64,000 nucleotides of DNA, from the NCBI RefSeq assembly GCF_019711355.1, contig NZ_CP081297.1:2501001-2565000 (forward strand), written 5' to 3'. The notes below the pieces were generated by a model. The model had not been told where the DNA came from, did not search any database, and saw nothing but the letters and a program-made list of their open reading frames with translations. The DNA is from Qipengyuania psychrotolerans (GTDB lineage Bacteria; Pseudomonadota; Alphaproteobacteria; Sphingomonadales; Sphingomonadaceae). Numbering within the stretch: position 1 is the first letter of the stretch; the number at the start of each line of letters is the position of its first letter. Position numbers and translations under genes: made by a program. Shown here in pieces: positions 12,934-15,188 of the stretch.

Positions 12934-14949
<2,016 letters not shown>

Positions 14950-15007
14950 GTCACTCGCATTCCGTCTCGTTTCCGGGCGCCCTGCCACAATGGAGCGCGC
15001 ACCGGAA

Positions 15008-15116
15008 GGGCGGTGTCACTGTAGCTGCGATTTCGGGAGGCTGACACCGCACCGCCCGAAACCGGGCGGCGGAGCGCTGCGTCAGGCCGCGCGCACCCGC
15101 CCCCGGGAACCCGGGG
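15008..15116 (-). promoter_or_regulatory. Candidate thrS attenuator: four segments able to form mutually exclusive pairings
   Basis: On the minus strand four segments follow the Thr codons. Segment 1 is GGGCGG (15102-15097, inside the leader ORF), segment 2 is CCGCCCG (15069-15063), segment 3 is CGGGCGGTG (15058-15050) and segment 4 is CACCGCCC (15015-15008). Pairs 1:2 (6 bp), 2:3 (7 bp, loop GTTT) and 3:4 (8 bp) share strands and so exclude one another, as in peptide-leader attenuators. A further 9-bp stem, GCGGTGTCA (15050-15042) with TGACACCGC (15018-15010), competes with 3:4 for the last segment. A stem CCCCGGG/CCCGGGG (15116-15101) directly follows the Thr codons. No U-tract follows segment 4, so how the switch is read out is open. 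Confidence 0.55.
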
Positions 15117-15153
15117 TGGTGGTAGTCGTGGCCGTGAAGCAAGCTTGCATCAT
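15082..15153 (-). CDS. Threonine-rich leader peptide of thrS (23 residues)
   Basis: The ORF reads MMQACFTATTTTTPG and ends RVRAA-stop. Six of the seven codons 7-13 are threonine (ACG, ACG, ACT, ACC, ACC, ACC with one Ala), in a short ORF between phoD and thrS. There is no Shine-Dalgarno sequence before the ATG. A promoter candidate immediately upstream would start transcription at or next to the A of the ATG, so the peptide could be translated leaderless, as known for trpL of Sinorhizobium meliloti. Ribosome stalling at the Thr run when charged tRNA-Thr is scarce would control the downstream pairings. It was inferred from sequence alone; codon clustering is far from what the surrounding composition would give. 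Confidence 0.65.
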   Translation of the reverse strand: MMQACFTATTTTTPGSRGRVRAA

Positions 15154-15160
15154 GGGAAAC

Positions 15161-15188
15161 GAGATAGCGCCGAGGGGCCGAAAGCTCA
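15161..15188 (-). promoter_or_regulatory. Candidate promoter for the thrS leader
   Basis: On the minus strand, -35 TTGAGC (15188-15183), 16-base spacer, -10 TATCTC (15166-15161). The -35 overlaps the phoD stop codon. The expected start point, seven or eight bases after the -10, falls on the A of the leader-peptide ATG at 15153. Confidence 0.4.

Follow-up and report, generated by a model that had tools for sequence, protein, structure and literature searches.

A conserved threonine leader ORF with covarying helices upstream of thrS in Sphingomonadales: a candidate ribosome-mediated attenuator

Results

A threonine-rich ORF and competing inverted repeats precede thrS

We analyzed a 64,000-nt stretch of the Qipengyuania psychrotolerans genome (contig NZ_CP081297.1, positions 2,501,001 to 2,565,000; hereafter the window). 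On its minus strand, the intergenic stretch between a PhoD-like phosphatase gene (PF09423; stop codon 15188-15186) and thrS contains a 23-codon ORF followed by competing inverted repeats. The thrS gene (12934..14949, ATG at 14949) encodes a threonine--tRNA ligase (TIGR00418, 639 bits against a cut-off of 384) with TGS, tRNA_SAD, tRNA-synt_2b and anticodon-binding domains, and a weak Shine-Dalgarno-like GACGGA was found by eye at 14961..14966. An earlier note on this DNA had reported a 23-codon ORF with six threonine codons in seven positions, and the ORF is present as claimed: it runs from 15153 to 15082 on the minus strand (23 codons plus stop), reads MMQACFTATTTTTPGSRGRVRAA up to the stop codon, and carries the run ACG GCC ACG ACT ACC ACC ACC at 15115..15135, in which six of the seven codons specify Thr.

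The pairing segments, all on the minus strand, were named 0, 1, 2, 3, 5, 4 and 6 in 5'-3' order. Segment 0 (15110..15116) pairs with segment 1 (15097..15107), which can pair instead with segment 2 (15062..15072). Segment 2 has segment 3 (15052..15064) as its other partner, and segment 3 can also pair with segment 4 (15028..15040). Segment 5 (15042..15050) lies within the 3:4 loop and pairs with segment 6 (15010..15018), giving a 9-bp stem of GCGGTGTCA (15050-15042) with TGACACCGC (15018-15010). The 1:2, 2:3 and 3:4 pairings and the competing 9-bp stem of the earlier note are thus all found in the window; the 0:1 stem inside the ORF and a two-box element past the 9-bp stem are additional to its description. 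The fold energy of the window was unremarkable (z -1.84; 9 of 200 shuffles folded as well), so that conservation has to decide whether the element is real.

The element is widespread in Sphingomonadales and lies upstream of thrS

A scan for thrS relatives gave 585 loci, of which the best 80 were kept; their titles named Sphingomonadales, or metagenome-assembled genomes (MAGs) labelled so or merely as Alphaproteobacteria. A Thr-rich upstream ORF within 450 nt of thrS was found in 49 of 81 sequences (48 of the 80 best loci plus the window), often in the form M..LLTTTTTTTT...RGR. Three of the 32 other loci (L008, L015 and L042) had the element about 550-570 nt upstream of thrS, which brought the total to 51 of the 80 best-matching loci. 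The remaining 29 were without it, indicating that thrS does not need the element. Carriers included Qipengyuania, Erythrobacter, Parerythrobacter, Altererythrobacter, Aurantiacibacter, Croceicoccus, Tsuneonella, Porphyrobacter and one MAG named Sphingomonas, among others.

A covariance model (R1) was built from 42 sequences and run on 396 genomes of the order at E <= 0.01. Matches were obtained in 141 genomes, from 25 of 84 genera. Upstream position relative to thrS was confirmed for 134 of 136 matches checked: 86 by coordinates and the other 48 (44 divergent matches plus G114, G353, G257 and G360) by inspection of the sequence; the matches in G159, G226, G255, G158 and G210 were outside the checked set. 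All 86 coordinate-checked matches were upstream and on the same strand, at 39-73 nt in 81 cases, 139-140 nt in two and 547-568 nt in three. All 44 divergent matches had 3-8 Thr in eight codons, a co-occurrence of model and Thr codons that is not fully independent, as R1 includes part of the Thr run. The genome of the window gave one strong match, the next having an E value of 1.5. Five R1 matches came from a class-wide draw of 385 genomes: the same genome, three members of its family, and one false match. Weak matches outside thrS at L129 (G240) and L131 (G054), both in the order, and at L121 (G767) were false on reading.

Among the 255 genomes of the order without a match, 26 were inspected over about 600 nt upstream of thrS each, and 25 of these had no comparable upstream ORF. 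Thr-rich stretches at L132, L193 and L199, from non-matching genomes, were chance features of long frames or of the gene upstream. L139 (G389) carried a decayed element (MPSVNTTSTPANTPASLR) with a poor Thr run and eroded stems, scoring 21.3 bits with filters off; L133, L136 and L132 reached 12-13 bits under the same setting. At one MAG locus (L048) the leader was present and segments 2-6 were missing.

Codon pattern and promoter position point to a translated, probably leaderless ORF

Among 100 aligned loci, the last five codons of the run had A as first and C as second base in 84-100%, and C as third base in 33, 45, 72, 73 and 79%. Since the Thr codons are kept while their third bases vary, this pattern argues that the leader is translated and that the run is selected at the codon level.

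A candidate promoter, P1, was found directly ahead of the ORF. In the window it consists of a -35 box TTGAGC (15189-15184, minus strand), which overlaps the stop codon of the PhoD-like gene, a 17-nt spacer, and a -10 box TATCTC (15166-15161) that ends 7 nt before the leader ATG. An automatic sigma-70 scan of the window listed no promoter, and the P1 pair was not in its output. Its arrangement nevertheless recurs in relatives. The search there allowed gaps of 3-13 nt with spacers of 16-19 nt, and shuffled upstream sequence searched in the same way served as control. Of 99 loci, 90 had a 17-nt spacer in the best-scoring pair (mean of 36% in shuffles), 86 had a gap of 6-8 nt between the -10 box and the leader start (28%) and 94 had a score of at least 8 (14%); the mean score was 9.00 against 6.49. 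The earlier proposal of a -35/-10 pair that would start the RNA at the leader ATG is thus matched by an arrangement that recurs in relatives above shuffled sequence. A Shine-Dalgarno-like site ahead of the leader start codon was seen in one of 99 loci. Given this and the conserved spacing of P1 before the ATG, the mRNA is probably leaderless, with a start predicted at or next to the ATG. A transcription start that excludes the leader had been named as grounds for rejecting the proposal; as far as the sequence tells, the conserved P1 puts the start where the leader is included.

Five helices covary across relatives

Covariation was assessed mainly by a swap test, in which the energy of each segment with its own partner was compared with that of partners drawn from other sequences (2000 permutations). 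L005, L025, L040, L048 and L069 (five of 49 leader sequences) were left out before the first alignment, and L049 and L061 before alignment A1 (42 rows kept). In 44 sequences, permuted partners did as well in 2/2000 cases for 0:1 and in 0/2000 for each of 1:2, 2:3, 3:4 and 5:6. The same values were obtained in 52 sequences outside the model, none of which was at least 90% identical to any model row; native and permuted energies there were -18.8 vs -14.1 kcal/mol for 3:4 and -10.5 vs -8.3 kcal/mol for 5:6. L048 and L173 were left out before identity thinning to below 75, 68 and 62%, which left 56, 23 and 11 sequences, respectively. Helices 3:4 and 5:6 stayed at 0/2000 throughout, whereas with 11 sequences 2:3 was indistinguishable from permuted pairs (375/2000) and 0:1 (66/2000) and 1:2 (58/2000) were borderline. 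Most control pairings gave no signal. Mildly low values were seen for 4:6 (12/2000), 2:4 (39/2000) and 4:7 (58/2000) in the full set of 100, and for 1:3 (17/2000 in the 52 sequences, 48/2000 in the 23 divergent ones).

Pair counts agreed in part. Alignment A2 was fitted to 2:3 and 5:6 only and does not favor 3:4, 1:2 or 0:1. For 3:4 on A2, both sides had changed in 91 cells, where shuffles gave 33.7 and slid versions no more than 27; pairs showing such a change numbered 8 against 6.8, a value reached by 99 of 500 shuffles. For 2:3 and 5:6 together, 32 cells were changed on both sides against 15.0 in shuffles (0/500), pairs with both-side change numbered 5 against 3.8 (95/500), and pair types gave 494/500. 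In a further count, made in 42 sequences, the number of pairs with both-side change was reached by 67 of 500 shuffles. Two of the five pair-count measures were not clearly above shuffles, and 1:2 consists mostly of invariant pairs, for which the shuffle control is weak. Taken together, the comparison of relatives indicates that the helices 0:1, 1:2, 2:3, 3:4 and 5:6 covary, 3:4 most strongly, with 1:2 and 2:3 weaker after thinning. The earlier note had proposed aligning thrS upstream regions from Sphingomonadales and named non-conservation as an objection; in the aligned sequences the Thr codons are conserved together with covarying stems, and the objection does not hold.

Two further pairings were rejected. 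A 6:7 pairing had 78% of its cells paired in 42 sequences, but its swap test gave 1998/2000 in the 52 others and 467/2000 in all 100. A distal stem 8:9, just ahead of the thrS Shine-Dalgarno site, reached only 69/2000 and is not claimed.

The predicted fold shifts with ribosome position

By median position, segment 0 starts with the last Thr codon, some 11 nt separate the end of segment 1 from the stop codon, and segment 2 begins some 11 nt past the first base of the stop codon. A ribosome covers about 12 nt downstream of its A site, and this footprint was assumed in equilibrium folding of 98 of the 100 loci (L048 and L173 left out), which ignores the order of transcription. With the ribosome at the last Thr codon, a pairing probability above 0.5 was reached for 1:2 in 85 loci, for 3:4 in 57, for 2:3 in 30 and for 5:6 in 15. 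At the stop codon, the corresponding counts were 92 for 2:3, 79 for 5:6 and 6 for 3:4; with no ribosome, they were 59 for 1:2, 55 for 5:6, 42 for 2:3 and 14 for 3:4. Under a strict switch criterion 44 of the 98 loci switched, and the window was not among them: in its stalled state, 5:6 had a probability of 0.64 and 3:4 of 0.36. The trend is consistent with the direction of the ribosome-position-dependent switch suggested in the earlier note; it is not a proof, and it is weak for the window's own sequence.

Among the features of a classic trp/his attenuator, a short ORF, apparently translated, with a codon run for the amino acid of the downstream gene is present, as are mutually exclusive 1:2, 2:3 and 3:4 pairings. 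An intrinsic terminator, that is, a last hairpin with a U-tract, is absent: no terminator-like site was found in the window and no U-run follows any stem, as the earlier note had seen, so its caution that control may be Rho-dependent or translational stands. In relatives, a CTT after segment 6 belongs with the two-box element.

A two-box element lies between the putative switch and thrS

The two-box element, CTTCC ... TGTGGCAGGG, lies at 14980..15008 on the minus strand. With six loci that carry an inserted gene (see below) left out, 94 of the 100 loci were used, and 82 of them had CTT just past segment 6 followed 19 nt on (start to start) by TGTGCCATGG or a variant, a count that is partly by construction, as 52 of these 94, taken at one fixed offset, supplied the weights for the second box. 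The second box was displaced in 14 loci (offset +2 to +51 from segment 6), and the spacing of 19-20 nt was kept in seven of these; CTT moves along with the second box in L045, L142, L172, L173, L177, L178 and L184. A script found no credible box pair in L005, L048, L069, L128, L130, L176 and L179, of which L069, L130 and L179 look similar by eye. L004, which lacks the leader, retains both boxes 19 nt apart. Across the genome of the window, where the places found were listed in part, the element was not enriched (86 forward and 60 reverse occurrences, against 108 and 123 in the reversed control). A reading of CTTYC as the U-tract of 5:6 was rejected; the motif stays 19-20 nt from the TGTGCCATGG box even when that box has moved relative to segment 6. 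The conserved spacing and the presence in leaderless L004, rather than membership of a known promoter class, suggest that the element is possibly a thrS-proximal promoter, P2, perhaps of an unusual type.

An inserted gene and a different leader elsewhere in the class

Six genomes (G114, G353, G298, G257, G318 and G374) carry an extra gene between segment 6 and thrS, 163-168 codons long in the five cases measured, and the same insertion occurs at L008 of Aurantiacibacter sp. D1-12. The product of the inserted gene (L122-L127 and L008) includes MRYYIDTEFNGTGG. The one protein scanned, from L126, showed a weak relation to RNase AS / Rv2179c-like exoribonucleases, below curated cut-offs. The Shine-Dalgarno site of the inserted gene touches segment 6 (by eye), so that at these insertions 5:6 could also block translation.

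A survey of 24 thrS loci from the other families of this class turned up one, L226, with a Thr leader of another type. From its family (f73; L226, L229 and L243-L271), 31 loci were taken, 28 of them with a located thrS start. Each of these 28 carries a promoter-proximal upstream ORF that ends in RT before the stop codon (for instance ..TTVRT or ..STDRT) and lies 118-154 nt ahead of the ThrS N-terminal motif; MERRFFTAPAVITTVRT and MDRLIFPAPTTLTTVRT are examples. Some of these leaders are low in Thr (2-3 in all). Most of the loci share CGAACTTGA and an inverted repeat of the CGGCCGGG/CCCGGCC type (by eye). These features suggest that the f73 leader is unrelated and would represent a second origin of Thr-leader control in Alphaproteobacteria.

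Discussion

The conserved codon run, the covarying helices and the promoter position make it likely that the element is a ribosome-mediated attenuator tying thrS expression to charged tRNA-Thr. Transcription from P1 would begin at or beside the leader ATG, and the leader would then be translated. When charged tRNA-Thr is scarce, the ribosome would stall in the Thr run, covering segment 0 and leaving segment 1 free; 1:2 would then form and free segment 3 for segment 4, and segment 5 would be trapped in the tight 3:4 loop. With 5:6 unable to form easily, transcription would proceed into thrS. When charged tRNA-Thr is ample, the ribosome would reach the stop codon and cover segment 1, which would let 2:3 and 5:6 form and would lower expression from P1. 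We infer that 5:6 is the OFF state and that it acts before thrS, most likely by factor-dependent termination, which is favored because no U-tract follows the stem. P2 would supply a basal, unattenuated level of thrS, and the switch would then gate P1 only.

Control of thrS is known mainly from E. coli, where ThrRS binds its own mRNA at an anticodon-arm-like hairpin just upstream of the Shine-Dalgarno sequence, and from Firmicutes, where a T-box is used. That precedent would favor a T-box or a ThrRS-bound autogenous operator over a leader peptide here, but we hold this to be highly improbable: no Rfam family, including Thr_leader (RF00506) and T-box, matches the leader region at gathering threshold, the only sub-threshold hit is a chance one on the other strand (RF01093, 16.6 bits), and selection on the Thr codons implies translation; the ThrRS operator was judged by eye. 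A relay driven by the Thr codons might instead hide or expose a ribosome-binding site rather than end transcription. The window's lack of a U-tract fits such translational control, as do the six genomes in which the SD-like GAGG/GCGGA of the exoribonuclease-like gene (by eye) abuts segment 6 and would be crowded by 5:6. In the usual layout, however, about 60 nt that include other conserved sequence separate segment 6 from the thrS start, and inspection by eye showed no pairing with the Shine-Dalgarno region of thrS, so we regard translational control as unlikely.

It is similarly unlikely that 3:4 and 5:6 coexist as an H-type pseudoknot, such that the starved state would be 1:2 plus the pseudoknot, with output through, for example, a paused polymerase or a bound factor. 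The order 3-5-4-6, the short junctions and the median 4-to-6 linker of 9 nt are compatible with this fold, and in 46 of 98 sequences the junctions are of minimal length or longer; by our own segment limits, however, the 3-to-5 junction is 0 nt in 50 of the 98, so that a 7-bp stem could be crossed only if some pairs melt. Still less probable is an action of the leader's main product in trans, as released RNA or peptide, with thrS control secondary. The leaderless trpL ORF of S. meliloti does have trans functions, rnTrpL and peTrpL (PMC7298713). Here, however, the peptide varies widely apart from its Thr run and its stem-coding RGR part, and the element remains in cis upstream of thrS.

Leader-peptide control of tRNA-synthetase genes is a known kind of regulation, represented by pheST and, as a proposal, by thrL-thrS of Streptomyces, and the relay type described here is closest to E. 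coli his. The his attenuator is a relay of six segments whose alternative pairings transmit the ribosome position to the last stem. The present element shares the relay of alternative pairings ending in a last stem; it differs in that segment 3 pairs with a segment beyond 5, enclosing 5 in a loop rather than pairing with it, in having no U-tract, and in controlling a tRNA-synthetase gene. In E. coli pheST, the leader peptide pheM, rich in the cognate amino acid, precedes a tRNA-synthetase gene. Our search, with most subscription journals outside it, found no published description of a thrS leader switch in Alphaproteobacteria or Sphingomonadales. Lopatovskaya et al. (2010; PMID 20198868), by its title a work on attenuation in operons for amino acids and aminoacyl-tRNAs, may include thrS of Alphaproteobacteria and could thereby anticipate some of the present description.

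The statement of the earlier note that no such thrS system was described in Sphingomonadales agrees with our literature search, yet a threonine leader before thrS has already been proposed in S. lividans (PMC8079986), leaderless, with one hairpin and no U-rich tract. The present element resembles that thrL-thrS in its Thr leader ORF before thrS, its leaderless start (here predicted from the promoter) and its lack of a U-rich tract. It has typically five to eight Thr codons in eight, against two in S. lividans thrL (MKRVRPFLETTPGFVPAR); S. lividans belongs to a different phylum, and the passages of PMC8079986 consulted describe no covarying relay; the comparison is one of descriptions. Bacillus hisS leader peptides, which were found by a search for intrinsic terminators (PMC2965389), share with pheST/pheM and the present leader a richness in the cognate amino acid ahead of a tRNA-synthetase gene; the amino acids and RNAs are others. 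The S. meliloti trpLE(G) attenuator is likewise alphaproteobacterial and its RNA begins at the leader ATG (PMC7298713), as predicted here, but it serves Trp biosynthesis and uses a transcription terminator. Leader peptides without a clear terminator are known from mycobacterial cys genes, for which Rho was suggested, and from the actinobacterial LEU element, for which a pseudoknot was proposed; these differ from the present case in genes and phylum, and the same paper covers Streptomyces trpS/leuS leader peptides (PMC1262725). No thrS leader was found in the passages of PMC2330054 consulted.

More broadly, the element may represent a new class of leader-peptide RNA, a reading we offer tentatively and put at somewhat below an even chance: a five-helix relay without an intrinsic terminator that would gate P1 only, with P2 directly after the switch as basal supply, a second client (the exoribonuclease-like gene) in one lineage, and, given the unrelated f73 leader, repeated emergence of Thr-codon control of thrS within the class. 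If true, a Thr-codon switch conserved in Sphingomonadales would be another solution to thrS control, and five covarying helices without a terminator would make a good natural system for how attenuators work without U-tracts in GC-rich bacteria. R1 provides a ready RNA model for annotation.

Some loci carry additional structure at the end of the element. In L005, a further large inverted repeat, GC-rich (about CCCTCACCCCCTCCCGGCCACC ... GGTGGCCGGGAGGGGGTGAGGG), is inserted between segment 4 and thrS, either within the 5:6 region or immediately past it, and the 5' half of a repeat of this type is visible at the corresponding site of L128.
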